Assembly: GCA_011390885.1 (NCBI GenBank)
Contig: JAABRO010000019.1
Coordinates: 1-55,111, forward strand
Source of the DNA: Gemmatimonas sp.
GTDB lineage: Bacteria > Gemmatimonadota > Gemmatimonadetes > Gemmatimonadales > Gemmatimonadaceae
DNA: 55,111 nucleotides
Direction: 5' to 3'
The translations under genes and the position numbers were made by a program. Each line of letters starts with the position of its first letter. The stretch's first letter is position 1. Positions 14,999 through 41,736 of the stretch are shown piece after piece. Under the pieces are notes generated by a model that saw only the letters and a program-made list of their open reading frames with translations, was not told the origin of the DNA and searched no databases.

Positions 14999-15538
14999 TC
15001 ACCCATGCTTGCGCACGTCCGTGGGCAGCCACGTGATGACCGCGATGAACAGCACGCCCACCCCGATCGCCAGCGGCACCACGGGCACGTGCAGCACATC
15101 GGCCAGGGTGATCTTGCCGAAGTCCATGACCGACACCAGCGGTTCGATGAGCGTGGTGTACACCAGCGTGAAGAGCAGCGCGCCGGCCACGCCACCGAGC
15201 AGCGCGAACAGCGCGTCGCGACGTCCCTCACCGATGCCCACCGCGCACGTACCGGGGCAGTAGCCGCTCAGCGCGAAGCCCACGCCGAACACGAGGCCGC
15301 CGAGCAGCACGCCCACCACATACGTGGGCTTGATGCTGAAGTGGAGCGCGTCCGGCATCACGAGCGAGAGCGAGTACACCAGCATCATGCCCACGGCGAT
15401 CGTCATGGCCATGAACTTGATGATCGACAGGTTCTCGAGCCGCAGGTTGGCGGCGATCGCTGCCGGGCTCGAGGCCCGGATGCGCTGGATGAGCAGGCCC
15501 ATCGCCACGCCGATGAACAGTGCGTAGACGTTCTTCAT
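14999..15538 (-). CDS. YeeE/YedE-family transporter, half-size (second subunit)
   Basis: 179-residue membrane protein (start 15538, MKNVYALF) with about four to five hydrophobic segments. The family signature SGYCPGTCAVGIGEGRRDA contains Cys94 and Cys98. YeeE/YedE proteins import thiosulfate or related sulfur species, passing the anion along conserved cysteines. This is the second half of a split pair: the gene just upstream carries the other signature, and the two reading frames are two bases apart. Their position after three sulfur-oxidation genes supports a role in sulfur compound transport. Confidence 0.88.
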   Translation of the reverse strand: MKNVYALFIGVAMGLLIQRIRASSPAAIAANLRLENLSIIKFMAMTIAVGMMLVYSLSLVMPDALHFSIKPTYVVGVLLGGLVFGVGFALSGYCPGTCAVGIGEGRRDALFALLGGVAGALLFTLVYTTLIEPLVSVMDFGKITLADVLHVPVVPLAIGVGVLFIAVITWLPTDVRKHG

Positions 15539-15540
15539 GG

Positions 15541-16098
15541 TCAGCGTCCTCCTGTCTTCGCCGCGTTGAGCAGCTTGGCCGTGCCGATGCCGGTGGCGAA
15601 CACGCCCGCCGCGAAGATGAAGCCGCTCACCGAGAGCTGCGTCATGCCGGAGATGATGTGACCGCTGGTGCAGCCGCCGGCGATGCGCGCGCCGAACACG
15701 ATGAGCATGCCCCCGATGAAGGCGTCGCGATACCGCTTGGCCGGCGTGGTCTCCGCCGGGTGCGTGGCTTCCATCTTGGGCGCCTTCACGCGATCGAAGC
15801 GCGCGCCGATGATGCCGCCCACGACGAGGCCGAGCAGGATGAAGGTTTCGGGGACGAGAATCGACCCCATCTTCACCAGGTAGGGGTTCTCCGCGGCGTA
15901 GCCGGGCGCGACGGCGCGCATCGCTTCGCCGATGATGCGCGGGTACGTGCCCGACACGCCGATCGGTCCCCAGGCAATGATCGACAGCACGCCGACCACG
16001 CCGAAGAGGATGCCGAGCGACGCCCACGGGGGCAGCTTGCCCGAGCGCTCGGCCGCGACGGACGCGGAAGAGTTGGTGACAGTGGCAGCGAACGACAT
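15541..16098 (-). CDS. YeeE/YedE-family transporter, half-size (first subunit)
   Basis: 185-residue membrane protein. It has a short hydrophilic N-terminus and then hydrophobic segments (LGILFGVVGVLSIIAW, FILLGLVVGGIIGA, FIGGMLIVFGARIAGG). The signature GGCTSGHIISGMTQLSVSG carries Cys143, the expected sulfur-relay cysteine of the YeeE/YedE family. It is followed two bases later by the partner half with the GYCPGTC signature, a PmpA/PmpB-like arrangement. The likely role is movement of thiosulfate or sulfane sulfur across the inner membrane; the direction and exact substrate are not visible. Confidence 0.9.
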   Translation of the reverse strand: MSFAATVTNSSASVAAERSGKLPPWASLGILFGVVGVLSIIAWGPIGVSGTYPRIIGEAMRAVAPGYAAENPYLVKMGSILVPETFILLGLVVGGIIGARFDRVKAPKMEATHPAETTPAKRYRDAFIGGMLIVFGARIAGGCTSGHIISGMTQLSVSGFIFAAGVFATGIGTAKLLNAAKTGGR

Positions 16099-16129
16099 CG
16101 TCGCAGTTCTCCTGACGGGGGTGACGGGA

Positions 16130-16813
16130 CTACTTCACGGGCGCGGGCACTTGCCGCGCATCCGGGATGAATCGGTCTGCGTACGGCATGCGCACGGCGC
16201 GCAGGCCGGCGGCGTCGAGCGTGGTGGTATCGGGGATCACGTCGTTGGCCGCGAGCAGGTACGCCGTGAGCGCGTAGACCTGGTCGTCGGTGAGCGAGCC
16301 GGGCGCCGTGAGCGGCATGGCGCGCTTGATGTAGTCGAAGATCGTGGTGGCGTACGGCCAGTAGTTGCCGATGGTGGGCACGATCTTCGGGTCGGTCGCG
16401 AACTTGAAATCCTCGCCTGCGGGATCGCGCCCGATGAGCGCCGGGTAGGCGGGGAGCATGCCCTCGCCGCGCTGCCCGTGGCACATGGCGCACTGCGCCT
16501 TGTAGAGCGCATTGCCGTCGGACACCGAGCCGCGGCCCGCGGGCAACTCCGCGCCGGTGTCGCCGACATCGAGATCGATGCGCGCGATGTGCGCCGATGT
16601 CGCGCTCGCACCGAGGCCGTACGCTCGGCCCGCGCCCGGGCCACCGGGGACCGCGCCGGCATCGTAATCGGCGAAGGTGGGGCGCATGCTCGCGGACGCA
16701 TCACTCGCACCGGCGGCAGTGGCAGCCCCCTCGCCCGCGCCGCTGCGCGGTGCCTCGCACGCCCCGAGCGCCACGAGGGTGAGAAGTGCCGCGGAAATGG
16801 AGACGATGCGCAT
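16130..16813 (-). CDS. Lipoprotein monohaem cytochrome c (SoxD/SorB-like)
   Basis: 227 residues, start at 16813, two bases after the stop of the sulfite dehydrogenase gene. A lipobox (LVALGAC, Cys19) predicts a membrane-anchored periplasmic protein. One haem site, CAMCH (Cys108, Cys111, His112), is followed by PALIGRDP, IGNYWPYATTIFDYIKRAMP and SLTDDQVYALTAYLL. This second half is characteristic of the haem subunit that pairs with SoxC/SorA sulfite dehydrogenases, with the Met in RAMP as probable sixth ligand. It should pass electrons from the molybdopterin subunit to the respiratory chain. Confidence 0.9.
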   Translation of the reverse strand: MRIVSISAALLTLVALGACEAPRSGAGEGAATAAGASDASASMRPTFADYDAGAVPGGPGAGRAYGLGASATSAHIARIDLDVGDTGAELPAGRGSVSDGNALYKAQCAMCHGQRGEGMLPAYPALIGRDPAGEDFKFATDPKIVPTIGNYWPYATTIFDYIKRAMPLTAPGSLTDDQVYALTAYLLAANDVIPDTTTLDAAGLRAVRMPYADRFIPDARQVPAPVK

Positions 16814-16815
16814 GG

Positions 16816-18141
16816 TCACGTCTCCCCGTGGAAGAACACCGACCCGTCGCGCTGCACCGTCCAGCCAAGGATCTGGTTGAAGTGGTAGTCGGTGCCCAGC
16901 CCGCGTCGCTCGATGAGCGCAGTGCGTGTGGGCTGCACCGCTCCCGTCTCGTCGGTGGCGCGGCTGAGCAGCACGGTCTCGTCGCCCGTCCAGTTCCACA
17001 TGTACTGAAAGCGCACCGTGCTCTTCGGCAGCGATTCGCCGAGCAGGTCGGCGTCGTGCCAGGTGCGTCCCGCGTCGGTGCTCACTTCCACGCGGGTGAC
17101 GCGTCCGTGTCCGCTCCACGCGATGCCGTTCACCGCGTGCCATCCCTTCGCGCTGAGCGTGGCGGGGTGTGACGGACTCGTGATGATCGACTTCACGTCC
17201 ACCGCGAAGGTGAACATCTCGGCGGTGCCGTTGGGGAGCGGATCGGTGTACTTGGCCGTCTCCCAGCGCGTCATCCACGGCCGGGTGCCGAGCTCGATGC
17301 GTCGGATCCACTTCACGTTGATGTTGCCTTCCCATCCCGGGAGCACCAGGCGCAGCGGATACCCTTGTGCCGGACGGAGTGGCTCGCCGTTCTGCGCCCA
17401 CACGATGATCGCATCGTCCCACGCCTTGGCGATCGGCACGGAGCGCGCGAGCAGGCAGGCGTCGCCGCCTTCGGCGAGGAACCACGTGGCCTCGGGCTTC
17501 ACGCCCGCCTCGCGCAGCAGCGTGGCGAGCGGCACGCCGGTGTACTCCGACGTGCTCACCATGCCCGACACGCTCTGCGCCGTCATGTCGGGCTTGGGCG
17601 CACGGTACGACGCGCGGCCATTGCCGGAGCACTCGATGAAGTGCGTGCGCACGACCTGCGGCAGCCGCTTGATGTCCTGCACGGAGAAGACGAGCGGTCG
17701 CTCGACGAGCCCGTGAATGGTGAGCGTGTGCTTGTCGGGATCGAGCGCGGGGATGCCGGCGTGGTGGCGCTCGAAGTGCAGGTCGGCGGGGGTGATCGAG
17801 CCGGTGAGGTGCTGCAGCGGCGTGAGCGAGCGCCCCACGGTCTCCCCGGTGGGGCCTCGCGCTGCGGTCACAAAGGGCGAGCGCGCGCCGAGCGAGGAGG
17901 TGGAGGCACCCTGCAGCTTGGTGGCGTCGGCGGGCACCGTGGGACGCGCGGCGGCCGCGGGGCTCTGGCCCTCGAGGGTGGCCGGGAGGCCGGCGAACAC
18001 GGCGCCGCCCACCATGCCGGCGGCGCCGGCGAGCATCTCGCGTCGGGTCAGCGCGGGAGCGGTCGTGGATCCGCCGGGCGCAGACGGCGCGGCACGCGGC
18101 GGGTCGTGCTCCTGCGGGGTGTGATCGCGGGGCGAGGACAT
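16816..18141 (-). CDS. soxC: Molybdopterin sulfite dehydrogenase subunit (SoxC/SorA type)
   Basis: Periplasmic sulfite-oxidase-family enzyme, 441 residues from the start at 18141. The twin-arginine signal LTRREMLAGAAGM is at about 31-43, as expected for export of a folded molybdoenzyme. The Mo-pterin domain shows FIECSGNGR with the Mo-ligating Cys171, and the dimerisation domain shows WAQNGEPLRPAQGYPLRLVLPGWEG, IKWI-like IRRIELG and GIAWSGHGRVTRVEVSTDAG. SoxC and SorA are hard to separate by eye; the downstream haem partner fits either. The gene lies between two cytochrome c genes with gaps of 2 and 10 bases, so it is part of one operon. Confidence 0.92.
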   Translation of the reverse strand: MSSPRDHTPQEHDPPRAAPSAPGGSTTAPALTRREMLAGAAGMVGGAVFAGLPATLEGQSPAAAARPTVPADATKLQGASTSSLGARSPFVTAARGPTGETVGRSLTPLQHLTGSITPADLHFERHHAGIPALDPDKHTLTIHGLVERPLVFSVQDIKRLPQVVRTHFIECSGNGRASYRAPKPDMTAQSVSGMVSTSEYTGVPLATLLREAGVKPEATWFLAEGGDACLLARSVPIAKAWDDAIIVWAQNGEPLRPAQGYPLRLVLPGWEGNINVKWIRRIELGTRPWMTRWETAKYTDPLPNGTAEMFTFAVDVKSIITSPSHPATLSAKGWHAVNGIAWSGHGRVTRVEVSTDAGRTWHDADLLGESLPKSTVRFQYMWNWTGDETVLLSRATDETGAVQPTRTALIERRGLGTDYHFNQILGWTVQRDGSVFFHGET

Positions 18142-18151
18142 GCGCCGCGTC

Positions 18152-19123
18152 CTACTGCCCGCGACGGCCGACGACCGGCGGATTGGGCACGATCGCCCGC
18201 TCGGGCGTCGCACGCGGCAAAAGCGGAGGCGGCCGATAGGCCTCGTGCCCGTTCGTGTTGTAGGGCACGTCCTTGGGCGCACCGCCCATGGGCCAGTCGA
18301 GCTCCTTGCCCGGCGAGTCGGGACGCGGATGCGAGTTCACGAAGGCCGCGAGGTCGAACGCTTCCTGCGGCGTGAGCGTCCCCGGTGCCGTCTGCGGCAT
18401 GTTGTGGTAGATGAAGCTCGCCGCGCGCTCCTCGCGCGTCATCGACGCGCCCACGGAGTATGACTTGGGCCCCCACAGCGGCGGGAAGACGCCGGGCTGC
18501 CCCTGCCCGTCCGGCATGTGACAAGTGACGCAGGTCTTGCTCACGTAGAGCTCGGCGCCGCGCGAGGCGTCACCGTCGAGGGTGTCCTTCATGGACACGA
18601 GTCCGTCGGCGCCCTCGATCTTGGTGCCCACGGGCACGTCCTTCGAGATGAACGCGAGATACGCGAGGATGTCCGTCATTTCCCGGCTTTCGACGGGAAG
18701 CGAGTTGCCAGCGAGCGAGCGGGTGAAGCAGTAGTTCACGCGGTCCGCGAGGCCGATGACGGTGCCGGATCGCGGCATGTACTTGGGAAAGCGCGCGTGC
18801 GAGCCGGTGAGCGGCCCAGCGGTGACCTTGATGCCATCACCCTGGTGGCAGCTGACGCACTGCATGCGGCCGGTGGCGTAGTCCGGCAGGCTGTCCGTGG
18901 GGTGGCGGAGCAGGTAGAGGCCGCGCTTGATCGAGGCCCCCATGGAGTCGTTCGGGATGTCCGCTTCGCGCGGCGGCTTCCACGACGCCTCGGTGAAGAT
19001 CACCGCGCGCTCATCGGCGACGGGGGCGGGGGGTTGGTCGGTGCTGCCGGCGCAGGCGGCGATCGACACGGACGCCGCGACGAGCGCCAGCGTCAGCGCT
19101 GGGGCCACGATCTGTGGGCGCAT
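18152..19123 (-). CDS. tsdA: Dihaem cytochrome c, thiosulfate dehydrogenase (TsdA)-like
   Basis: 323 residues. An N-terminal hydrophobic stretch ends in a lipobox-like SIAAC (Cys24). Two haem sites are present: CVSCH (89-93) and CVTCH (198-202). Between them is the TsdA-type block LADRVNYCFTRSLAGNSLP, in which Cys132 corresponds to the cysteine that ligates the active-site haem in TsdA, then SREMTDILAYLAFISKDVPVG. TsdA joins two thiosulfates to tetrathionate and passes electrons on. The C-terminal tail after the second haem domain is long and proline-rich. It is first gene of the sulfur operon. A more distant SoxA-like role is the alternative. Confidence 0.85.
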   Translation of the reverse strand: MRPQIVAPALTLALVAASVSIAACAGSTDQPPAPVADERAVIFTEASWKPPREADIPNDSMGASIKRGLYLLRHPTDSLPDYATGRMQCVSCHQGDGIKVTAGPLTGSHARFPKYMPRSGTVIGLADRVNYCFTRSLAGNSLPVESREMTDILAYLAFISKDVPVGTKIEGADGLVSMKDTLDGDASRGAELYVSKTCVTCHMPDGQGQPGVFPPLWGPKSYSVGASMTREERAASFIYHNMPQTAPGTLTPQEAFDLAAFVNSHPRPDSPGKELDWPMGGAPKDVPYNTNGHEAYRPPPLLPRATPERAIVPNPPVVGRRGQ

Positions 19124-19166
19124 GGGAGGGAACCTCGGAGGGGGGAGTGGAGGGGGCCCTTCGATT

Positions 19167-19192
19167 GCTATACTCCCATACAGTGATATAGC
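19167..19192 (-). promoter_or_regulatory. AT-rich dyad in the promoter of the sulfur operon
   Basis: GCTATA (19167-19172) and TATAGC (19187-19192) form an inverted repeat with a 14-base spacer, 44 bases or more ahead of the first cytochrome gene. It stands out in a segment of about 70% GC. TATAGC on the minus strand could itself be a -10 element. Palindromes with ATA/TAT half sites are common for ArsR-family repressors, and such a gene ends this operon. The link is inference. Confidence 0.5.
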
Positions 19193-19231
19193 GGACCGCG
19201 CCAGCGCGCCATAGGAACGGCCGGTCCGACC

Positions 19232-20413
19232 TCATCCGCGCCCGAGACGTTCCGCCATCCTCAGCAGCAGTTCGTCGTTGCCGCGCGCCGCCACGAGCGA
19301 CAGCCCGAGCGGGCATCCCCGCAGCGACGCGAAGGGGAGCGACAGCTGCGGCAGCCCGCCAAGTCCGGCCGCGCAGAGCAGCGCCAGCGCCCGCTCGCGC
19401 ACCGGCACCGCCGTTTCCGGCGGTTCGTTGAGCAGCGGGGCGATGTCCGGCATGGTGGGCATGAGCAGCACGGCGTCGCCGGTCAGGAGCGCGTCGAGCC
19501 GCGCCCGAATCGCCTCGCGCGCCGCGGCAGCGGGGGGCACGCTCGCCGGATCGGTGGCGGCCACTGCCTCGAACCGCGGGGCGATGCGCGGCCCGAAGCG
19601 CGGCTGCTCGGTGCGCACCCACTCTCCGTGCGCCTCCCAGATCTCCGCCGCCTGCAACGTGCGGAACACCTCGAACCAGCCGCGCAGCCCCTCCTCGCTG
19701 AGCACGACCGGCTCGGCGGCGCCGAACGCGGCCTCCACGCGCGCCACGGCCGGCGCAAGCGCGTCAGCCGCTTCCGGGAGGGCGTGCGCGAACGCGTCGG
19801 TAGCGATGAGCAGCCGGCCGATGGACGGGGCTGGCTGATCACCAAGCAGCACCGCGCCCACTCGCGCCAGCAGGTCGGCGTCGCGCGCGAACCAGCCGCA
19901 GGTATCGAAGCTCGGCGCGAGCGGACAGACGCCGTCGAGCGAAATGCGACCGTGGGTGGGCCGCATGCCGTAGATGCCGCAGAAGCTCGCCGGTGCGCGC
20001 ACCGAGCCACCGGTGTCGCTGCCGATCGCGAAGTCCACGAGTCCACCCGCCACCGCCGACGCCGAGCCGCTCGACGACCCACCCGGCACGCGCAGCGGCG
20101 CTGCCGGGTTGACCGGCGTGCCGTAATGCCCGTTCTCGCCGGTGAGGCTGAACGCCATCTCCTCCGTGTGCGTCCGGCCCACGAGCGTGGCACCGGCCGC
20201 CAGCAGGCGCGTGACCACCGAGGCGGTGCGCTCGGCCGGCTCGTGTGTGCGCAGCCAGTCCGGGCTGCCGAAGCCGGTACCGTGCCCGGCGACGTCGAAG
20301 ATGTCCTTGAGGCCGAAGGTGAGCCCTGCCAGCGGGCCGTCGGGCGCACCGGCGAGCTCGAGATGCGTGTGGCGGCAGAAGGCGCCGAGCGTGTCGCGTT
20401 CGAGTATGGACAT
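19232..20413 (-). CDS. Amidase-signature family hydrolase (cytoplasmic)
   Basis: 393 residues, start MSILERDT at 20413; no signal peptide. The amidase-signature catalytic set is visible: Lys36 in FGLKDIFD, the cis-Ser in GGSSSGS (about 113), and the nucleophile Ser137 in DTGGSVRAP. It is short for the family and resembles AMI1/indoleacetamide-hydrolase-like or small AtzF-like amidases. It is separate from the longer secreted amidase at 31967. It lies upstream of the sulfur operon on the same strand, with an AT-rich promoter between them, and is divergent from the CHAT operon. The substrate is unknown. Confidence 0.9.
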   Translation of the reverse strand: MSILERDTLGAFCRHTHLELAGAPDGPLAGLTFGLKDIFDVAGHGTGFGSPDWLRTHEPAERTASVVTRLLAAGATLVGRTHTEEMAFSLTGENGHYGTPVNPAAPLRVPGGSSSGSASAVAGGLVDFAIGSDTGGSVRAPASFCGIYGMRPTHGRISLDGVCPLAPSFDTCGWFARDADLLARVGAVLLGDQPAPSIGRLLIATDAFAHALPEAADALAPAVARVEAAFGAAEPVVLSEEGLRGWFEVFRTLQAAEIWEAHGEWVRTEQPRFGPRIAPRFEAVAATDPASVPPAAAAREAIRARLDALLTGDAVLLMPTMPDIAPLLNEPPETAVPVRERALALLCAAGLGGLPQLSLPFASLRGCPLGLSLVAARGNDELLLRMAERLGRG

Positions 20414-20523
20414 GCACGCAACATGACCTGTGGTGCCGGCCGGCGCACGGGGCACATCGGTCCGGTCACCACGCTTCGCGTGCGCGAGCGAACTCGACCG
20501 TGTGCATCGCGTCGTTTGCACGC

Positions 20524-20601: not shown

Positions 20602-22998
20602 ATGACGCCGCGCCGTCCGCCCAAGGACACGTCGAGCAGACGCTCCGCGAAGGCCCCCGCGAAGACACCGGCGACCGTACCGGCGAAACGCGCCCGCGTG
20701 ACATCGCGACCACCGGCCGCGCGCCGCGCCTCATCGTCCGATGCGTCGATCACGACATCGACCGCCGATCACGCGCGCGTGCAGCTGCTCACACCCAGCG
20801 GCCCGATCGACCTCCACTGGCCCGCACCGGGCACGCGCGCGCTCGCGACGCGGCAGCAGCAGGCCATCGAGTGGACGCACGTCGTGCGCAACCGTACACG
20901 CTGGGTGCGCTCACGCGACGGGTCCGGCGAGCAGGACGAACGGGCGCGCGATTTTCTGCGTGACCTTGGCGTGAGCGAGCCGCAGCGACGCTGGCTCGCC
21001 GAAGCGGGCACGGTGTGCGTGTGCATTCCGTACGAGGCCGAGCAGGTGGGATGGGAAGCACGCATCCTGCCGTGGGAGTTCCTGATCTCGGCGGGCACGC
21101 GCGACTTGCGCACCGGCATGGTCGCGGTCACGCGCTGGCTGCTGCGCCCGCCGGCGGCCGGCCCACTGCGTCTCGATACGGTGCTCTTCGTGGAGAGCGC
21201 GCCGGGCAAGCTGCTGCAGGACTGGGACTTCGAGAGCGAGCGCCGGCTGGTGGAGCGCTACACGAAGGCGAAGACGTTCGAGCGCCTCGTCTCGCCCACG
21301 CTCGACGAGCTCGGCGCGCGCATTCGCGCGCTGAAGCCCGGCATCGTGCACCTCGCAGGCTTCGACACGCACCAGGGGCTCGAGCTCGTGAAGGACCCGC
21401 GCGCCAGCGACATCGGCGACGGCTACGTGCTGGCCGCGCAGGGCGGTGTGGAGCCGGTGCTCGCCGCCGACCTCGCGCGCACCATCTGCTCCGGCGCACA
21501 CGCGCCGAGCGTGGTGTTCTGCAACATCTGGAACTCGGCCGCGCGTGTGGCGCCGCTGCTGGTGGCGGCCGGCGCCACGACGGCGATCGGCTTCCAGGAC
21601 GGCATGGACGACGCGCTCTCCGAGATCTTCCTCGGCAGCTTCTACGAGCGGCTCGCCGAGACGCGCATCGTGTACGCCGGCTTCGACGCCGGATGGGAAG
21701 CGCTGCAGGCACAACCCAAGCCGCTGCGCGGCACGGGCATCGTGCTGTGGCGCGGTGGCGTGGCGTCGGAGCTCGGCAGCACCGGACTGCAGTACACCGC
21801 ACCTGCGGCGCGCGAACGTTCGGCGCTGCTCCCCTCGTCGATGACGGCGCACGAGGCCCAGGAACTCATTGCGCTCACGGTGGAACCCGAAACGCAGTTC
21901 AGCTACGGGCTGCTGCACAACAACCGCGACCTGTTCCGCCGCTTCATCATCCGCAACCTCGGCGCCGCGCCCATTCACGGGCTCGAGGTGTTCGTCGAGC
22001 TGCACTCGAACGACGGCACGTATCCCTATCGCCAGAGCTTCTCGCTCGACGGGCCGGTGCGCGACCTCACGCGCGAGATCCGCATCGCGCTCACGTCCAA
22101 CCTCGCGCGCACGCTCGACGAGCTGCTGCGCACGAGCCTGTACGTGCGTGTCACATGGGGTCCGCACGAGATCTTCAGCCGCACGTTCCCGGTCACGCTC
22201 GCACCGGTGGACCAGTGGGCCGACACGGACGCCGACCGCAGCTTCCTGCCGTCGTTCGTGTTCCCGCGCGATCGCGCGGTGGGCACGGTGATCCGCAACG
22301 CCGAGCACTTCGTGACCGCGCTGCGCGACGACCCCACGGCCGGCTTCGATGGCTACCAGTCGCTCGACGCCTCGCTCGCCAACCCGGCCGCGTCGGTGGA
22401 CCACCAGGTGCAGGCGCTGTGGTACTCGGTGGTGTATCGCGTGCCCGCGTCGTACATCAACCCGCCGCCCACGTACGCGGTCGCGTCGCAGCGCATCCGC
22501 ACGCCGAGCGAGATCGTGGCCGGTGGCTACGGCACGTGCATCGACCTCGCGCTCATGTTCGCGGCCTGCCTCGAAGCGGTGGAGATCCATCCCGTCATCT
22601 TCCTGCTCAACGACCACGCGTTTCCCGGCTACTGGCGCACCGATCGCGCCCGCGAGTCGTTCCTCCGCGCGCTGGAGAAGCTCGCCAGCGTGCCGGACGG
22701 CGCGGTGGACGGCGCACTCGGCGACGGCTCGGCCGCACGTGAGCGGCCGAGCGTGGCGTGGTCGTTCGACGCCGCCACGCTCGACGTGATCGTGGCCGCC
22801 ATCAAGGGCAACCGCCTGGTGCCGCTCGAGTCGGTGGGGCTCACGCGCCGCTCCAGCTTCGCCGACGCGATCCTCGACGGGTGCGACCACTTCGCCGACG
22901 CGGAGCGGCCGCGCTTCCTCGCCATGCTCGACCTGCAGACGGCCCGCGAGCAGGGCGTGACGCCCATTCCTCTCGGCGCGCGACTGCAGCTGCCCTGA
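20602..22998 (+). CDS. CHAT-fold (catalytic residues lost) plus transglutaminase-like peptidase protein
   Basis: 798 residues from the start at 20602. After a basic, low-complexity N-terminus (1-50), residues about 150-390 match the CHAT (caspase-like) fold: ILPWEFLI, KPGIVHLAGFD, PSVVFCNIWNSA, and AGATTAIGFQDGMDDALSEIFLGSFYERL. The two catalytic positions are changed: the GHG His is Phe254 and the ACxTG Cys is Trp310, although Cys307 is close by. A beta-rich middle part follows. The C-terminal part (about 560-720) is a transglutaminase-like cysteine peptidase module, with GTCIDLALMFAACLEA (Cys646) and NDHAFPGYW (His672). That module resembles the one at the start of large DUF4011-type helicase proteins. 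First gene of a three-gene operon. Function is not known; a scaffold or sensor CHAT with a working C-terminal peptidase is one reading. Confidence 0.8.
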   Translation: MTPRRPPKDTSSRRSAKAPAKTPATVPAKRARVTSRPPAARRASSSDASITTSTADHARVQLLTPSGPIDLHWPAPGTRALATRQQQAIEWTHVVRNRTRWVRSRDGSGEQDERARDFLRDLGVSEPQRRWLAEAGTVCVCIPYEAEQVGWEARILPWEFLISAGTRDLRTGMVAVTRWLLRPPAAGPLRLDTVLFVESAPGKLLQDWDFESERRLVERYTKAKTFERLVSPTLDELGARIRALKPGIVHLAGFDTHQGLELVKDPRASDIGDGYVLAAQGGVEPVLAADLARTICSGAHAPSVVFCNIWNSAARVAPLLVAAGATTAIGFQDGMDDALSEIFLGSFYERLAETRIVYAGFDAGWEALQAQPKPLRGTGIVLWRGGVASELGSTGLQYTAPAARERSALLPSSMTAHEAQELIALTVEPETQFSYGLLHNNRDLFRRFIIRNLGAAPIHGLEVFVELHSNDGTYPYRQSFSLDGPVRDLTREIRIALTSNLARTLDELLRTSLYVRVTWGPHEIFSRTFPVTLAPVDQWADTDADRSFLPSFVFPRDRAVGTVIRNAEHFVTALRDDPTAGFDGYQSLDASLANPAASVDHQVQALWYSVVYRVPASYINPPPTYAVASQRIRTPSEIVAGGYGTCIDLALMFAACLEAVEIHPVIFLLNDHAFPGYWRTDRARESFLRALEKLASVPDGAVDGALGDGSAARERPSVAWSFDAATLDVIVAAIKGNRLVPLESVGLTRRSSFADAILDGCDHFADAERPRFLAMLDLQTAREQGVTPIPLGARLQLP

Positions 22999-23021: not shown

Positions 23022-24914
23022 ATGCAACGAGCCCTGATCGCGATCGGCGTGAAGAAGACCGGCGGCCTGCCCGAACTGCAGGCGGCCATCGAGGGCGCGC
23101 AGGCCATGCACGACTGGGCGCGCGGGCACCAGAAGATGCCGGCGTCGCGCGTGAAGCTGATCAGCGACGCGAAGTCGCGCGTGACGCGTGAGCGCATCTT
23201 CGACCAGGTCGAGAAGATCGCGAAGCTCGGCTTCGTGGAGCAGCTGATCGTGTACTTCTCGGGGCACGGCATCAACTCGGGGCTGCACGAGCAGTGGCTG
23301 CTCTCGCGCGCACCGGACGACCCGGGGGCCGCGGTGAACCTGCGCGGCAGCCACGAGCTCGCGCGCTATGCGGGCATCGGGCACGTGGTGTTCATCTCGG
23401 ATGCGTGCCGCACGGCGGCTGACGGCATCCAGGCGCAGAGCGTGAGCGGCGGCGAGATCTTCCCCAACTACCGCCGGCAGGGGCAGGAGAAGCCGGTGGA
23501 CCAGTTCTTCGCCACGCTGGTGGGTGATCCGGCGTTCGAGGTGAAGTCGGTGATCGACGCCGCGGCGCGCTATCGGGCGGCCTACACCACGGTGCTGCTC
23601 GAGGCGCTGCAGGGCCGCGTGCCGAGCGTGCTGCAGCCGCAGGATGGTGCGTCGGTGGTGCGCCCGTGGCCGCTCAAGGACCATCTCGCGGTGGCGGTGC
23701 CGGCGTTCCTGTCATCACTGACCATGCCGGGCGGCGTCACGCAGCAGCCGGACGCACGCGTGGAATCGCGCCCCGACGCCTGGATTGCGACGGTGCCCGA
23801 CGTGCCGGCGCCGGCTCCCCCTCCGGCACCGGCACCGGCGAAGCGCGCTGGTGTCAAGCGCGCGGCCGGCGGCGCGCAGCGACCTCCCGTCGCGCCACCC
23901 GCTCCCGCTCCGACCATCGACCTCGGCGACGACGACCTGCCACCGCCGGCCGTGGTGGGCGCGGCTTCGCCGGCACCCGACGTGGTGCGCGACGCCAGCG
24001 CCGAACTGCGCGCGGTGCTCGAACCGGGCGCGCCGCGGCCGAGCGCCAAGCGACGCGGTGCCGCGCGTGGCGCCGCGGCACGCGGAGAGGTCGCGCGCGA
24101 ATCCGTGCTCGCACACACGCTCGCGCGCACGAGCACCGGCTTCGGCCCGGACCATTTCGAGACGCAGTGCGGCATCAAGGTGCGCGGCGCCACGCTGGCC
24201 GACACGTACGCCCCGAACGCCGGCGTGTCGATCGGATACCTCGGCGATGTGATCCAGGTGGCGCTCGAACATGGACACGCGGCCACGAACGTGTTCGTGC
24301 AGTTCGCCGATGGATCGGCCGTGGTGGTGCCGGCGCTGCAGGAGCACATCACGGCGCTCACGATCGACGACGGGCGGCTGCGCGACGTGGCGTTCGAGCC
24401 GTCGCTGAACACGGCGCGCGGCCAGGCGTGGCTGGCACGTCGTGCCGAGTTCACGCGGCTGCGCGACCTCATCGCCGCCGCGAGCTCGCTCGGCGCGTTT
24501 CGCCTCGACGATGCCGCGCAGGGCACCGCACTGCTCGAGCAGCTTGGACGCACGGGTGGTCTCGACCCGGCGCTGCGTGTGTACGCGACGTGGGCGCTGC
24601 ACGACCGCCGCCTGCACGCCGAGATCACGCGGCTGCACGAGCAGGCGGTGCAGCAGCTCGGTGTGCGCGTCTTCGATCTCGCGCTGCTCGCTGACACCCT
24701 TGGCGACGAGCGCCTCACCACGGCCGGCCCCGGTCTCTTTCCGTGCGTGCCCATGCTCTCGCAGGGGTGGAGCCTGCTGTCGGCCTTCGACGTCACGCTG
24801 CGCGGACGACTGCCCGAGCTGCGCGCACACCTGCGCCCCGCGCTGTGGACGCACATCACGCCGGCCGGTGCCGGCATCCTGCTGGACTCCCTTCAGAGTG
24901 GACTGGTGGACTGA
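23022..24914 (+). CDS. Caspase-family (peptidase C14-like) protease with novel C-terminal region
   Basis: 630 residues, start at 23022 with GGAG seven bases upstream, 23 bases after the CHAT gene. Residues 1-250 are a caspase/metacaspase-like p20 domain: ALIAIGVKKTGGLPELQAAI, then the catalytic His82 in IVYFSGHG and Cys129 in VVFISDACR. Both catalytic residues are intact. A Pro/Ala-rich linker (about 260-350) leads to a beta-rich segment (380-460, ETQCGIKVRGATLADTY...FVQFADGSAVVVPAL) and a helical tail to 630; neither was recognised. Such proteases in bacteria often activate partner effectors by cleavage. Neighbours, a pseudo-CHAT/peptidase and an alpha/beta hydrolase, are plausible partners or targets. 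The stop overlaps the next start (TGATG). Confidence 0.88.
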   Translation: MQRALIAIGVKKTGGLPELQAAIEGAQAMHDWARGHQKMPASRVKLISDAKSRVTRERIFDQVEKIAKLGFVEQLIVYFSGHGINSGLHEQWLLSRAPDDPGAAVNLRGSHELARYAGIGHVVFISDACRTAADGIQAQSVSGGEIFPNYRRQGQEKPVDQFFATLVGDPAFEVKSVIDAAARYRAAYTTVLLEALQGRVPSVLQPQDGASVVRPWPLKDHLAVAVPAFLSSLTMPGGVTQQPDARVESRPDAWIATVPDVPAPAPPPAPAPAKRAGVKRAAGGAQRPPVAPPAPAPTIDLGDDDLPPPAVVGAASPAPDVVRDASAELRAVLEPGAPRPSAKRRGAARGAAARGEVARESVLAHTLARTSTGFGPDHFETQCGIKVRGATLADTYAPNAGVSIGYLGDVIQVALEHGHAATNVFVQFADGSAVVVPALQEHITALTIDDGRLRDVAFEPSLNTARGQAWLARRAEFTRLRDLIAAASSLGAFRLDDAAQGTALLEQLGRTGGLDPALRVYATWALHDRRLHAEITRLHEQAVQQLGVRVFDLALLADTLGDERLTTAGPGLFPCVPMLSQGWSLLSAFDVTLRGRLPELRAHLRPALWTHITPAGAGILLDSLQSGLVD

Positions 24915-25801
24915 TGCGACAGTTGATCTTCGTGCATGGCCGCGCGCAGCAGAACAAGGACGCGGCCGCACTCAAGCAGGAATGGATCTCGGCGTGGGAG
25001 CAGGGGCTCGCCACGCACGCGCTCACCAACCCGCTGCCGGACGACCACATCCGCTTTCCGTACTACGGCGACACGCTCGTGCAGATGGCCGGCGGTCTCA
25101 CGAGCGACGAGGCGGTGGAGGTGATCGTGAAGGGCCCGCCACCGCCGTCAGCCGAGGAAGATCTCATGCGCGAGATGATCGCCGAGATCGCGGCCCACGA
25201 GGGCGTCGCCGAGGCCGACATTCTCGCCGAGCTCGATCCGGCCGTGATCGCGCGCGGCCCCGCGAACTGGGGGTGGGTGCAGGGCATCCTGTCGGCGCTC
25301 GACAGGATCAGTCCGATCTCCAAGGCACTCGTCTCGCTCGTGACGGCGGATGTGTCGAAGTACCTCACCAACAGCGCGATCCGCGCCACGATCGACGCCG
25401 GCGTGCGCAGCGCGGTGCGCCCCGACATCGACGCGGTCGTCGTCTCGCACTCCCTCGGCACGGTGGTGGCCTACAACGTGCTCATGTCGCGCTCGGGGCC
25501 GTTTCCAGCGGTGCAGGTGCCGCTGTTCGTGACGCTGGGGTCGCCGCTCGCCGTGAACGCGATCAAGAGCCGACTGCGCCCGCACACGTTCCCCACGCCG
25601 GTGAGCAAGTGGTACAACGCGATGGACCCGGACGACGTGGTGTCGCTCTACCCGCTCACGAAGAAGCACTTCAACACGGGCGGCACCATCACCAACCACG
25701 ACAAGGTGAAGAACCATACGGACAACCAGCACGGCATCAGCGGCTACCTCGACGATCCGGCGGTCGCCAAGCGGATCTATGACGCGGTCATGGCACCGTA
25801 G
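24914..25801 (+). CDS. Alpha/beta hydrolase (lipase-like) of the caspase operon
   Basis: 295 residues, coupled to the caspase gene by a one-base overlap. The N-terminal strand and oxyanion motif QLIFVHGRAQQNK opens an alpha/beta hydrolase. The nucleophile elbow is SHSLG (Ser180), the acid is Asp240 or Asp241 in MDPDDVVSLYPL, and the base is His273 in NQHGISGYL. The order and spacing make a complete triad. An insert of about 100 residues between strand one and the nucleophile would form a lid. There is no signal peptide, so it acts in the cytoplasm. Lipase-type hydrolases are common as membrane-damaging effectors beside caspase-like proteases in bacterial conflict systems; that role is inferred. 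It overlaps the convergent next gene by 14 bases. Confidence 0.87.
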   Translation: MRQLIFVHGRAQQNKDAAALKQEWISAWEQGLATHALTNPLPDDHIRFPYYGDTLVQMAGGLTSDEAVEVIVKGPPPPSAEEDLMREMIAEIAAHEGVAEADILAELDPAVIARGPANWGWVQGILSALDRISPISKALVSLVTADVSKYLTNSAIRATIDAGVRSAVRPDIDAVVVSHSLGTVVAYNVLMSRSGPFPAVQVPLFVTLGSPLAVNAIKSRLRPHTFPTPVSKWYNAMDPDDVVSLYPLTKKHFNTGGTITNHDKVKNHTDNQHGISGYLDDPAVAKRIYDAVMAP

Positions 25802-36677: not shown

Positions 36678-37004
36678 ATGTCCACCAAGATCGACCTCAT
36701 TGCGCGCAGCCTGCCGGAGTTCCGTCAGCCGGGACTCGACACGGGCGCGCGCGCGATTCCGCTCCCCGGCCTCGAGTCCGAGGGCCCGTCGTTCGGCGAC
36801 ACGCTCACCCAGGCGCTCAACGGCATCTCCGCCACGCGCGATCACGCCGGGGACATGACGCGCCGCTTCGCGGCCGGCGAGGACCTCGAGCTGCATCAGG
36901 TCATGGCCGCGCAGGAAGAAGCCGGCATCGCGCTGGACCTGCTCATCGAGATGCGCAACAAGCTCATCGAGAGCTACCGGACCCTCATCAGCATGCAGTC
37001 GTAA
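36678..37004 (+). CDS. fliE: Flagellar MS ring-rod junction protein FliE
   Basis: 108 residues. The C-terminal half is the FliE core: SFGDTLTQALNGIS, then LELHQVMAAQEEAGIALDLLIEMRNKLIESYRTLISMQ-like, seen here as HQVMAAQEEAGIALDLL and NKLIESYRTLI. FliE links the MS ring to the proximal rod and is needed for export. It lies between flgC and fliF in the standard flgBC-fliE-fliF order. Confidence 0.95.
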   Translation: MSTKIDLIARSLPEFRQPGLDTGARAIPLPGLESEGPSFGDTLTQALNGISATRDHAGDMTRRFAAGEDLELHQVMAAQEEAGIALDLLIEMRNKLIESYRTLISMQS

Positions 37005-37010
37005 GCCGAC

Positions 37011-38585
37011 ATGGCGAACGCGATGGAATCTCTCTTCGGCCGGGTGAACGGCTCACGCCAGACGGCGATCATCGCCGTGGGCGTCGTGGCCACCGTGGCG
37101 GTGCTCGCGCTCTCGCGCTGGGCCACGGCGCCGACGTTCGTGCCGCTCTACACCGACCTGCCGCTCGAATCGGCCGGTGTCGTCACCGACAAGCTCACCG
37201 AGTCGGGCATCGAGTTTCAGCTCGACCACGCCGGCTCCTCCATTCTCGTGCCGAGCGCCGACGTGGCCAAGGCGCGTGTGGCGCTCGCCCGCGAGGCGCT
37301 CCCGAACGCCGGCCGCCCCGGTCTCGAGCTGTTCGACAAGCCCACGTGGGGCATGACGGACTTCACGCAGAAGGTGAACTACCGCCGCGCGCTCGAGGGA
37401 GAGCTCGAGCGCAACATCGGCGCGATGCAGGGGGTCGAGCGCGTGCAGGTGCACCTTGCACTCGAAGACGAGAAGCTGTTCAAGGCCGACACGCGCGACT
37501 CGAAGGCCTCCGTCACGCTCGCCATGCGGGGCGGCGAGACGCCCGCACCGGCCACGGTGCGCGGCATCGCCAGCCTGGTGGCCGGCTCGGTGAGCGGCCT
37601 GACCGCCGAGCACGTGGTCATCGTGGACGAGCGCGGCAACGCGCTCACCGAGATCGACGACGCCGCCGGCATCGGCCTCTCCAGCCGCCAACTCACCGTG
37701 CAGCGGGAAGTGGAGCGGCACCTCGAGGAGAAGGCCGAGGCGCTGCTCTCGCGCATCGTGGGGGCCGGCAACGCGCGCGTGCAGGTCGCCGCCGCGGTCA
37801 ACTTCGATCGCGTCGAGCGCACCACGCAGTCGGTCAATCCCGACCAGCAGGCGATCGTCACCGAGCAGAAGAACGAGATCATTCCGCAGGCCGGACAGCC
37901 CGGCGCGTCCTCCACGAACGTCTCGACCAGCTACGAGACCACGAAGAGCGTGGAGTCGTTCAGCGGCGCGATCGGCAACGTGCGCAAGCTCACCGTGGCC
38001 GTGCTCGTGGCCGACAAGGTCACGCTCACGCCGACGGCCGACGGCGCCGAGCCGGTGCCACCGGTGGTCACGCCGCGCACCGCCGAGGAACTGGCGCGCA
38101 TCGAGACGCTCGTGCGCAACGCACTCGGCGTGGACGACGCGCGCGGCGACGGCGTGTCGGTGGTGAGCGCCCCCTTCGACCTGCCCATGCTCACCGCGCC
38201 CGTCGCGGACTCGCTCCCCGAGCCCACGCTCGTGACGCAGGTGATGAACAACCCCAAGCCGGTCATCACGATCGCCGCGATCCTTGCGCTGCTCGTGGTC
38301 ACGCTGGTGATGGTACGCGCGCTGCGGCCTGCGCCTGCACCGGCCGCACCGGCGCCCACGCCGGCGCTCGCCGCCGCGACCCCCGTCTCCGCCGGCGCGC
38401 TCGGCAGCGGCGCGATGGCGTCTGCCGCCACGGCGGCGGATGAACCCGAAGAGCTCGACGCCCCGAAGAAGCCGGTGAAGCTCCCGCCGCAGGCGACCAC
38501 TCCCGAACGGGAGCAGGCCATCGCCACCGTCGAGCAGCGCCCCGACGCCGCCGTGCGCGTGACCCGCGCCTGGCTGAGGTCCTGA
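37011..38585 (+). CDS. fliF: Flagellar MS-ring protein FliF
   Basis: 524 residues. Two membrane segments frame a periplasmic ring-building part: TAIIAVGVVATVAVLALS (about 18-35) and VITIAAILALLVVTLVMV (about 420-440). Ring motifs include FVPLYTDLPLESAGVVTDKL, FDKPTWGMTDFTQKVNYRRALEGEL and a central linker before EQKNEI. The cytoplasmic tail ends REQAIATVEQRPDAAVRVTRAWLRS, the FliG-binding helix. Length is normal. It starts six bases after fliE and ends one base before fliG. Confidence 0.97.
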   Translation: MANAMESLFGRVNGSRQTAIIAVGVVATVAVLALSRWATAPTFVPLYTDLPLESAGVVTDKLTESGIEFQLDHAGSSILVPSADVAKARVALAREALPNAGRPGLELFDKPTWGMTDFTQKVNYRRALEGELERNIGAMQGVERVQVHLALEDEKLFKADTRDSKASVTLAMRGGETPAPATVRGIASLVAGSVSGLTAEHVVIVDERGNALTEIDDAAGIGLSSRQLTVQREVERHLEEKAEALLSRIVGAGNARVQVAAAVNFDRVERTTQSVNPDQQAIVTEQKNEIIPQAGQPGASSTNVSTSYETTKSVESFSGAIGNVRKLTVAVLVADKVTLTPTADGAEPVPPVVTPRTAEELARIETLVRNALGVDDARGDGVSVVSAPFDLPMLTAPVADSLPEPTLVTQVMNNPKPVITIAAILALLVVTLVMVRALRPAPAPAAPAPTPALAAATPVSAGALGSGAMASAATAADEPEELDAPKKPVKLPPQATTPEREQAIATVEQRPDAAVRVTRAWLRS

Positions 38586-38586
38586 C

Positions 38587-39630
38587 GTGAGCACCGCCGT
38601 CGCCACCCGCGGCGCCGACCGCTACGCCCTTGAGCGCCTGACCGGCCGCCAGAAGGTCGCCATCGTGTGCATGGCGCTCGGCGCCAAGCATGCGGCGCGC
38701 ATCACGGGCCAGCTCGCGCCCGATGAAGCCGAGATCGTGGCGCTCGAGATGGCCACGCTCGACCGCGTCCCCCCCGAGACGATCACCGCCGTGCTCGAGG
38801 AGTGGCTCGAGCTGACCGTGGGCATGGACTCGCTCAACACCGGCGGCGTGGAGTTCGCGCGCGAGGTGCTCGAGGAGGCCTTCGGTCCGGCCAAGGCGCA
38901 GCAGATCCTCAAGCGCATCCAGGGGCAGCTCGCCGACAGCGACCGCTTCGGCCGCCTGCGTCGCGCCGACCCGCAGCAGCTCGGCAGCACGCTGCGCGGT
39001 GAACACCCGCAGACCATCGCGCTCATCCTCGCGCACCTCGACCCGGGGCACGTCGCGCAGATCCTGCGCGAGCTCGACAGCACGCTCGGCGGCGAGGTGA
39101 TGTTCCGCATCGCGCGCATGGAGAAGGTGTCGCCCGAGATGATCTCCCTCGTGGAGCGCGCCATCGGCAGCGAGGCCGAAATGGCGTTCACGCAGGGCAT
39201 GAGCAGCGTCGGCGGCCCGGCCGCGGTCGCTGCCGTGCTCAACCTCGTGAGCACGTCGCTCGAGAAGGAAGTCCTCGAGGCCGTCTCCGAGCGCGACCCC
39301 GCGCTCAGCGACCAGATCAAGAACCTCATGTTCGTCTTCGAGGACCTCATCACCCTCGACGACAAGTCGCTGCAGCGCCTGCTGCGCGAGATCGACGTGA
39401 AGCAGCTCGCGCTCGCCCTCAAGGCGGCCAGCGCCGAACTCAAGCAGCGCATCATGGGCGTCATGTCGCAGCGCGCCGTGGCGGGACTCAAGGAGGAGAT
39501 CGAGTTCCTCGGCCCGGTCAAGATGCGCGACGTCGAAGCCTCGCAGTCGGACATCGTGTCGAAGGTGCGCGCGCTCGAGGAGACGGGCGAGATCGTGCTC
39601 TCGGCGGGGACGGAAGATGTCATCATCTGA
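38587..39630 (+). CDS. fliG: Flagellar motor switch protein FliG
   Basis: 347 residues with a GTG start at 38587, one base after the fliF stop. N-terminal, middle and C-terminal domains are all present: LTGRQKVAIVCMALG, GEHPQTIALILAHLDP, the RIARMEKVSPEMI block, and in the C-terminal domain LMFVFEDLITLDDKSLQRLLREID with charged residues that face the stator (KAASAELKQRIMGVMSQRA). It forms the C-ring top and generates torque. The 3' end overlaps fliH by 14 bases. Confidence 0.97.
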   Translation: MSTAVATRGADRYALERLTGRQKVAIVCMALGAKHAARITGQLAPDEAEIVALEMATLDRVPPETITAVLEEWLELTVGMDSLNTGGVEFAREVLEEAFGPAKAQQILKRIQGQLADSDRFGRLRRADPQQLGSTLRGEHPQTIALILAHLDPGHVAQILRELDSTLGGEVMFRIARMEKVSPEMISLVERAIGSEAEMAFTQGMSSVGGPAAVAAVLNLVSTSLEKEVLEAVSERDPALSDQIKNLMFVFEDLITLDDKSLQRLLREIDVKQLALALKAASAELKQRIMGVMSQRAVAGLKEEIEFLGPVKMRDVEASQSDIVSKVRALEETGEIVLSAGTEDVII

Positions 39631-40354
39631 CGCCGCCATGCCGTCGCCGTGGGCGCTCGACGAACTCGACGTGGACGACGTGTTCACGCCGCTGCACGAC
39701 GCGTACGGTCACGCGCTGCCGTTGTCCGACATGGCACGCCAGGGCGATCCGCAGGTGCCGTCGGCCGAGCAGGCCGCTGCACTCGCCGCGGCCGAAGCGG
39801 ACCGCGCGGCGTTCGAGGCCCGCGTCACCGAGCGACTCGCCGCGCTGCGGCCGGCTGTCGAGGCGGAGGCCTATGCGCGCGGACGCGCCGACGGCCTTGC
39901 CGAAGGTGCCGCCCAGGGACGCGAGCAGGTCACGCGCGTGCTCGATGCGCTGATGGAGGCCACCGCCTCCGTGCATGCGCACGAACAGCGCTGGCTCGGC
40001 AACGTGGAAGAGAACCTCGCCGCCATCGCGGTCACCATCGCTCGGCATGTGATCCATCGCGAACTCGCCACCGACGCTTCGGTCGTCACCGACCTCGTCG
40101 CGCGCGCGCTGCGTCAGTTCCCGCTCGAGAAGCAGCTCACCGTGCGGCTCGCCGCCGATGATCACGCGATCGTGATGGACGCGCTGGCACACGGCGGCCT
40201 CGAGGTGCCCGCCACGCACGAGATCCGCTGGCTCGCCGACCCGCACATCGTGCGCGGCGGCTGCCTGGTGGAAGGGCGCGAGCGGGTGCTCGACGGCCGC
40301 ATCGACACCGCGCTCGAGCGCACCTATCGCGCCCTTGGCCAGGTGCAGGCATGA
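39617..40354 (+). CDS. fliH: Flagellar export ATPase regulator FliH
   Basis: 245 residues from 39617; an internal ATG at 39638 is an alternative that avoids the fliG overlap. The N-terminal half is an Ala/Glu/Arg-rich helix with AYARGRADGLAEGAAQGREQ, the glycine-spaced coiled coil typical of FliH. The C-terminal half (HVIHRELATDASVVTDLVARALRQF...TALERTYRALGQV) is the V-ATPase-E-like globular domain. FliH binds FliI and holds it at the export gate. Stop and fliI start overlap (ATGA). Confidence 0.9.
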   Translation: MSSSDAAMPSPWALDELDVDDVFTPLHDAYGHALPLSDMARQGDPQVPSAEQAAALAAAEADRAAFEARVTERLAALRPAVEAEAYARGRADGLAEGAAQGREQVTRVLDALMEATASVHAHEQRWLGNVEENLAAIAVTIARHVIHRELATDASVVTDLVARALRQFPLEKQLTVRLAADDHAIVMDALAHGGLEVPATHEIRWLADPHIVRGGCLVEGRERVLDGRIDTALERTYRALGQVQA

Positions 40355-41736
40355 GCGCCGCGATGCACGACCGCACGGCACCCGGCTTCGACGCCGACAC
40401 CTTCGCCGCCGACACTTTCACGGCGCGCCTCGACGACGTGGCCAGCTTCGCCACGTACGGACGGGTCACGCGCGTGGTGGGCCTCGTGCTCGAGGCCACC
40501 GGCCTCGACGCCGGCCTTGGCGCGCTCTGCCGCGTGACCAGCCACTCGCGCGATCGCTCCGTGCTCGCGGAAGTGGTCGGCTTCCACGAGCGGAGCGTGC
40601 TCCTCATGCCACTTGGCGAAATGGACGGCCTGCACCCCGGCGCGAGCGTGCAGCCGCTCGGCCGCTCCTTCGGCGTGGACGTGGGGCCGTCGCTGCTCGG
40701 CCGCGTGCTCAACGGCCTTGGCCATCCCATCGACGGCAAAGGCAAGCTCGATGTCGTGGAGCGCGTGCCGCTCTCCGCCGAGCCGCCGAATCCGCTCGAC
40801 CGCCAGACCATCGACCGGCCGCTCGAGACGGGCGTGCGCACCATCGACGGCCTGCTCACCGTGGGCCGCGGCCAGCGCGTGGGCATCTTCGCCGGCTCCG
40901 GCGTCGGCAAGAGCACACTGCTCGGCATGATCGCGCGACATGCGAAGGCCGATGTGAACGTGATCGCACTGCTCGGCGAACGCGGTCGCGAGGTGCGCGA
41001 CTTCCTGGACAATGCGCTCGGTGCGGAAGGGCTCGCGCGCAGCGTGGTGATCGTGGCCACTGGCGACCAGGCGGCGCTCGTGCGCGCGCGCGGTGCGCTC
41101 GTCGCGACGGCGATCGCCGAGTACTTCCGTGACCAGGGCAAGCAGGTGCTGCTCATGGTGGACTCCGTCACGCGCGTGGCCATGGCCTGGCGCGAGATCG
41201 GCCTCGCCACCGGCGAGCCGCCCACTACCAAGGGCTATCCGCCCAGCGTGTTCGCCAACCTGCCGCGCCTGCTCGAGCGCGCGGGCAACGGCGCGCGCGG
41301 CGGCATCACGGGCATCTACACCGTGCTCGTGGACGGCGACGACTTCAACGAGCCCGTGGCCGACGCCGCGCGCTCGATCCTCGACGGCCACCTCGTGCTC
41401 ACGCGCAAGCTGGCCGCACAGAACCACTACCCGTCCATCGACATCCTCGAGTCCAAGAGCCGCGTGCGCGACGCCATCGTGTCGCCCGCGCAGCGTGACG
41501 CCGCTTCGCAGGTGCAGCGGCTCGAGGCCGCGTATCGCGAGAAGGAGGACCTCATCATGGTGGGCGCCTACCAGAAGGGGAGCGATCCGTACGCCGATGC
41601 CGCGCTCGCGCATCGCGAGTCGGCGCTCGACTTCCTGCGCCAGTCCCCCGACGAGGTCACGCTCTTCGGTGACACGTACGGCGCACTCACGCAGCTCGGC
41701 GGCACCATCGCCGCCGCCACGCGGAGGCCGGCATGA
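40351..41736 (+). CDS. fliI: Flagellar export ATPase FliI
   Basis: 461 residues, F1-beta-like ATPase of the flagellar type III export apparatus. Walker A FAGSGVGKST is at about 180-189, Walker B VLLMVDSVTRVA follows, with the ALLGERGREVRDF and PPTTKGYPPSVFANLPRLLERAG blocks characteristic of FliI. The N-terminal 20 residues are an extension before the beta-barrel domain. It overlaps fliH by four bases and fliJ by four. Confidence 0.97.
   Translation: MSAAMHDRTAPGFDADTFAADTFTARLDDVASFATYGRVTRVVGLVLEATGLDAGLGALCRVTSHSRDRSVLAEVVGFHERSVLLMPLGEMDGLHPGASVQPLGRSFGVDVGPSLLGRVLNGLGHPIDGKGKLDVVERVPLSAEPPNPLDRQTIDRPLETGVRTIDGLLTVGRGQRVGIFAGSGVGKSTLLGMIARHAKADVNVIALLGERGREVRDFLDNALGAEGLARSVVIVATGDQAALVRARGALVATAIAEYFRDQGKQVLLMVDSVTRVAMAWREIGLATGEPPTTKGYPPSVFANLPRLLERAGNGARGGITGIYTVLVDGDDFNEPVADAARSILDGHLVLTRKLAAQNHYPSIDILESKSRVRDAIVSPAQRDAASQVQRLEAAYREKEDLIMVGAYQKGSDPYADAALAHRESALDFLRQSPDEVTLFGDTYGALTQLGGTIAAATRRPA

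Follow-up and report, generated by a model that had tools for sequence, protein, structure and literature searches.

The window, by which we mean the whole stretch of 55,111 nucleotides of Gemmatimonas sp. that was analyzed (contig JAABRO010000019.1), contains a group of three closely spaced genes (Table 1). Gene 2 starts 23 bases past gene 1, and the start of gene 3 overlaps the stop codon of gene 2 by one base (TGATG). The gene 2 product matches a PADLOC caspase model (E 3.7e-6) and the NCBIfam model caspase_w_EACC1 (E 7.8e-5), while its Pfam Peptidase_C14 match (E 0.0029) falls under the cutoff. With 22.3 bits against a cutoff of 140, it is not assigned to the EACC1-type caspases (NF047832), and a His/Cys dyad is present. 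Both flanks appear housekeeping-like, with amidase and cytochrome c genes upstream (15000–20500) and the flagellar gene FliF and a FliI-type ATPase gene downstream (37000–41700), and no defense island was seen in either of these intervals.

Table 1. Genes, domains and residues of the gene 1 locus, in positions of the window.
Feature	Position	Strand	Basis
Gene 1: pseudo-CHAT + beta-sandwich + transglutaminase-like protein, 798 aa	20602..22998	+	Open frame, ATG 20602
Pseudo-CHAT region, residues 57–388	20770..21765	+	Model, Foldseek, VIA-align, Pfam CHAT in relatives
Phe254 at catalytic His position	TTC 21361–21363	+	Profile alignment to 8tl0, joint alignment
Asp255, family-specific, D in 34/36	21364..21366	+	Family alignment, joint alignment
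Cys307, proposed shifted nucleophile	TGC 21520–21522	+	C in 4/36
Trp310 at catalytic Cys position	TGG 21529–21531	+	Profile alignment to 8tl0, joint alignment
Predicted beta-sandwich, ~residues 414–540	21841..22221	+	Strand-rich in full-length model; within module matching start of ProA model
Transglutaminase-like (TGL) domain, ~residues 541–798; C646 (22537), H672 (22615), E743 (22828)	22222..22995	+	Pfam in relatives, triad conservation
Gene 2: caspase-like protein, 630 aa; H82 of SGHG (23265), C129 of SDAC (23406)	23022..24914	+	PADLOC, NCBIfam, Pfam
Gene 3: alpha/beta hydrolase, 295 aa; SHSLG serine S180 (25451)	24914..25801	+	Weak PGAP1/Abhydrolase_6 matches

Residues 57–388 of the gene 1 protein are a CHAT/separase-type fold according to structure prediction and profile comparison. 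The AlphaFold2 model of residues 57–400, built from 36 sequences, reaches a pLDDT of 91.7 and a pTM of 0.91, and a Foldseek search of the PDB with the pseudo-CHAT model returns SAVED-CHAT (PDB 8tl0) as the best match (E 5.8e-10), with Csx29 and separase among the next. Superposition on 8tl0 with VIA-align yields a Z of 20.5 at an rmsd of 2.6 over 178 residues, followed by DdvA, gingipain, Csx29 and separase at about Z 13.6–15.4. The profile of 36 relatives also matches 8tl0 by sequence (E 8.7e-9), and Pfam CHAT (PF12770) is matched by 12 of 30 full-length family members (best E 4.5e-5); neither the window protein alone nor the window's genome gives a Pfam CHAT match. The alternative that the region is not a CHAT fold was rejected on the profile match to 8tl0 together with the Foldseek and VIA-align results. 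The full-length model has a low pTM (0.51) and the domain arrangement is not readable from it; the CHAT half dominates its structural matches in the PDB.

A first-pass annotation, made from the sequence alone, had reported that this domain lost both catalytic residues while the rest of the fold was well kept; the CHAT fold, the loss and the conservation of the domain are all supported. It had placed the loss at 21349–21540, which is exactly the stretch coding for residues 250–313, and had aligned HLAGFD and PSVVFCNIWNSA by hand to the CHAT motifs. Both segments occur in the gene 1 protein where it had located them, and the alignment agrees with that of the family profile to 8tl0, in which position 254 lies opposite the second His of HFIGHG and position 310 opposite the Cys of LNAC. 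For the same columns, the family was also aligned jointly with 15 canonical CHATs of related genomes. These had been chosen for carrying the motifs, so that the test consists in whether the motifs land in columns 254 and 310. They do so in 15/15 sequences for His and 15/15 for Cys, as opposed to 0/36 and 1/36 in the family. Among the 36 aligned family sequences, position 254 is occupied by Phe (12), Val (10), Ile (6), Cys (5), Met (1), Leu (1) or Gln (1), and position 310 by Tyr (15), Trp (9), Phe (4), His (3), Glu (2), Asp (2) or Cys (1). Six more members from sampled genomes, which include near-duplicates of the 36, carry F/M/V/F/I/V at 254 and W/E/F/H/Y/Q at 310. Neither the gene 1 protein nor its family thus qualifies as a CHAT domain protease, for which catalytic His and Cys are needed. 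As judged from these alignments, dyad loss is family-wide and extends across several phyla, and since it is common to sequences that are just 25–45% identical to the window protein, it goes beyond chance. Sequencing error and local decay of a single gene were rejected as explanations, given that relatives in several phyla have the loss in common and that the close pairs of relatives compared evolve under purifying selection.

The only Cys at position 310 belongs to a divergent family member (L039), which has Gln at the His position. Just outside the family branches a sister CHAT-TGL protein (L085:3394-5676 in G262; support of 0.995 for the clade including it), in which the Cys motif is kept as VVVNAC and LHLSPPS stands at the expected His motif in an alignment of this region by eye. 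This protein is a possible intermediate with the His apparently lost and the Cys motif kept. Based on these two sequences, the His may have been lost first.

The dead CHAT domain, which the first-pass annotation had called conserved, is kept by purifying selection. Across 15 close pairs, dN/dS amounts to 0.13–0.31 in the CHAT half and 0.06–0.16 in the TGL half, the dead half being the faster-evolving one. At the former catalytic motifs the family displays a pattern of its own, HxxG-hydrophobic-D255 and N308-x-310-x-S312, in which D255 is conserved in 34/36, N308 in 31/36 and S312 in 34/36 sequences. Purifying selection and this family-specific pattern make the binding or sensing role suggested in the first-pass annotation plausible, and a ligand was not found.

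The first-pass annotation had missed the C-terminal half of the protein, which is predicted to consist of a beta-sandwich followed by a TGL domain whose Cys646-His672-Glu743 triad appears intact. Residues 435–684 match positions 2–242 of the NCBIfam model antiphage_ProA (NF058533; E 1.7e-48), which is matched by 30/30 family members; with 165 bits against a cutoff of 1500, the match concerns the N-terminal module only and does not amount to full-length membership. Pfam labels of the TGL domain are weak, namely DUF553 in 13/30 and Transglut_core in 3/30 members, and the window protein scores 17.3 bits against the DUF553 cutoff of 20.5. The triad is conserved throughout the family (C646 in 39/39, H672 in 39/39, E743 in 38/38) as well as in ProA-type proteins (10/10, 10/10 and 9/10, respectively). 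Papain-fold enzymes bear their Cys at the start of a helix and their His at the start of a strand; in the full-length model, C646 starts a helix and H672 starts a strand. The third triad residue of classical transglutaminases is Asp, as opposed to the Glu of the TGL domain described here. Conservation of Cys, His and Glu and the placement of Cys and His in the model suggest that a dead caspase-like domain sits on a probably live thiol enzyme. Nor is the gene 1 protein necessarily devoid of enzymatic activity, since every relative retains an intact TGL triad and gene 1 is the first in an operon with further hydrolases.

The beta-sandwich and TGL module is also found elsewhere. A tblastn search of plasmids recovered it within DUF3320/DUF4011 proteins, and the best-ranked plasmid and phage matches cover the C-terminal half only, lying in DUF4011/DUF3320 proteins or unannotated records, with none reaching at least 80% of the query. 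In another protein (L097 in G455), the same module is preceded by a fused AAA+ ATPase-like sequence, which points to shuffling of the module among N-terminal partners.

When 84,980 species genomes were scanned, 37 loci of the gene 1 family were identified in Gemmatimonadota, Acidobacteria, Planctomycetota, Myxococcota, Verrucomicrobiota and Proteobacteria. At 33 of these, the gene 1 homologue is adjoined by a gene for a DUF7379 alpha/beta hydrolase, which carries the serine motif HSRGG in 30/30 examined cases; in 20/30, there is a 4-base overlap with the stop codon. The four loci without an adjacent DUF7379 gene comprise two at contig ends (L018 and L020), one with a metallopeptidase-like gene as neighbor (L005), and L039, where the most divergent pseudo-CHAT-TGL gene is immediately followed by a canonical CHAT-nSTAND1 gene (a STAND NTPase fusion; L039:4798-5694). 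No DUF7379 match was obtained in the window's genome, so the two-gene cassette of the relatives is absent there. The window cassette instead seems to join two modules, because a caspase and alpha/beta hydrolase pair resembling genes 2 and 3 occurs without gene 1 in another genome (L084:8551-11333 in G007).

In six Bradyrhizobium genomes (L033, L034, L035, L037, L038, and L040), the pseudo-CHAT and TGL halves are encoded by separate, overlapping genes. These split copies form one clade beside fused Bradyrhizobium copies in the tree; the split, which is restricted to this clade, is a gene fission at the domain border, and it suggests two separable units that are retained together. Inheritance of the family is patchy. 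Members occur in 3/99 close relatives, the window's own genome included, and the full architecture is found in about 1% of 399 Burkholderiales-order genomes and about 1% of 392 Planctomycetota genomes. Copies from the genus of the window fall on different branches (the window copy near L004 and L005, L027 near Bradyrhizobium), which suggests horizontal transfer.

PADLOC defense models matched none of the family members (0 matches, gene 1 protein included). An uncontrolled scan of 95 neighboring genes against PADLOC and Pfam gave isolated matches, several of them to generic families, and no evident defense island; the neighbors of the family loci are mostly housekeeping genes with scattered PADLOC matches. 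A literature search on the function of anti-phage ProA or DUF4011/DUF3320 proteins found none beyond one study predicting that the TGL domain of giant DUF3320 proteins is a protein-cleaving defense arm (PMC3710099) and a mention as a hotspot marker (PMC10250203). A survey of bacterial conflict systems describes the pairing of caspase-superfamily domains with genes for alpha/beta hydrolases and gives the inactive share of caspase domains in effector position as about 70% (Kaur et al., 2020, PMC7159879).

We lean, with modest confidence, toward gene 1 encoding a pseudoprotease-regulated effector of a conflict cassette, in which the dead CHAT domain recognizes or docks, the TGL domain acts, and a hydrolase is coupled. 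The CHAT domain is probably a regulator or sensor rather than a protease. Its fold would provide a recognition, docking or oligomerization module, probably by means of the remodeled former active-site groove and its pattern of D255 and a mostly aromatic position 310. It would control the C-terminal beta-sandwich and TGL thiol domain, and the latter would carry out the chemistry on a protein target, either cleaving peptides or transferring them. The neighboring hydrolase, which is coupled translationally, may represent a second effector or a substrate, this arm being DUF7379 in most relatives and a caspase plus another alpha/beta hydrolase in the window. Such a cassette would most likely serve as an anti-phage or programmed-death conflict system. 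Precedents exist in PMC7159879 (caspase and hydrolase pairs, inactive caspases), PMC3710099 (giant DUF3320 proteins with TGL) and PMC10028731 (Csx29). The data directly establish the fold, the loss of the dyad across the family, selection, the retained TGL triad, the coupling of the genes and the patchy inheritance, whereas TGL activity, its control by the CHAT fold, the trigger and a role in defense are inferred. Counting against this reading are the lack of PADLOC matches to family members and of an evident defense island, the weak Pfam labels of the TGL domain and its Glu in place of Asp, and the low pTM of the full-length model. A more far-reaching and tentative proposal, which may well not hold, is that of a hitherto undescribed defense cassette, where a pseudo-separase/CHAT domain would have changed from a protease into a sensor of the trigger that sets off a transglutaminase-type effector. 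Its hydrolase arm would be exchangeable, being a DUF7379 hydrolase, a caspase with a hydrolase, or CHAT-STAND.

It is rather unlikely that the CHAT domain, instead of regulating the TGL domain, acts as a decoy or dominant-negative mimic whose active-site shape traps a phage or host protein, or which pairs with a neighboring active caspase. This role has been proposed for inactive enzymes in related systems (PMC7159879), it would suit the faster evolution of the dead half, and the gene directly after gene 1 encodes a caspase with its dyad in the window and a canonical CHAT-nSTAND protein in L039. In most relatives, however, the neighbor is the DUF7379 hydrolase, which is neither a caspase nor a CHAT protein, and the caspase-hydrolase pair exists without gene 1 in G007. 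We also doubt that the domain is a mere structural or oligomerization scaffold that joins the TGL domain and the hydrolase without recognizing a ligand, as the constraint on D255, N308 and S312 at the former active site is not obviously required of a scaffold; filament formation by the activated SAVED-CHAT protein (title of 8tl0) and the continued adjacency of both parts in the Bradyrhizobium split would fit such a function. The near-invariance of D255, S312, R315 and D333 could hint at another enzyme with a new active site, for instance D255/S312/R315. This is very improbable, since the sole invariant His of the family, H250, is just as invariant among canonical CHATs (15/15) and hence probably structural, S312 corresponds to the Thr/Ser of the canonical motif in the joint alignment, and the family alignment contains no conserved Cys in the domain. 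Lastly, the suggestion of the first-pass annotation that Cys307, three residues ahead of position 310 in the window protein, might be a shifted nucleophile, in which case the domain would still be a protease, can safely be set aside, as position 307 is not conserved (Leu 15, Phe 8, Cys 4, Ala 4, Trp 3, Met 1, and Val 1 in 36 sequences) and lies within a predicted strand (304–308, full-length model), and no relative has His at 254.

Animals are well known to regulate active proteases through dead ones (iRhoms and cFLIP), and a pseudoprotease-regulated effector as favored here can be compared with several bacterial systems. The gene 1 protein shares its CHAT fold with SAVED-CHAT (8tl0); in contrast, the HFIGHG and LNAC motifs of the latter are replaced by HLAGFD and CNIW, and a beta-sandwich and TGL domain are found instead of the SAVED sensor. 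The CHAT architecture likewise aligns with that of separase and of the TPR-CHAT protein Csx29 (Craspase) across almost the whole model (residues 1–331). In Csx29, where CHAT is under allosteric control, H615 and C658 are required (PMC10028731), whereas both positions are lost in the gene 1 protein. Anti-phage ProA and the DUF4011-DUF3320 giants (NF058533) have the beta-sandwich and TGL module with the same Cys-His-Glu triad in common with it. These giants also bear helicase and nuclease domains (PMC3710099), and the ProA model extends over 1903 aa, while the gene 1 protein has a pseudo-CHAT N-terminus and stops after the TGL domain. Genes 2 and 3 resemble the caspase and alpha/beta-hydrolase pairs of Kaur et al. 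(2020), the available part of which reports and predicts inactive caspase-like effectors in bacteria and contains no description of a TGL domain fused to a dead CHAT domain; unlike in the systems covered there, no MoxR-vWA or VMAP gene was recognized beside the window cassette (PMC7159879). A whole CHAT branch in which the dead state has become fixed, and which is joined to a second thiol enzyme that appears intact, constitutes a clean test case. How a caspase-like fold of bacteria can turn from a cutter into a switch becomes testable with it, and it ties caspase-type signaling to the TGL module of anti-phage proteins of the ProA type, which is little understood.
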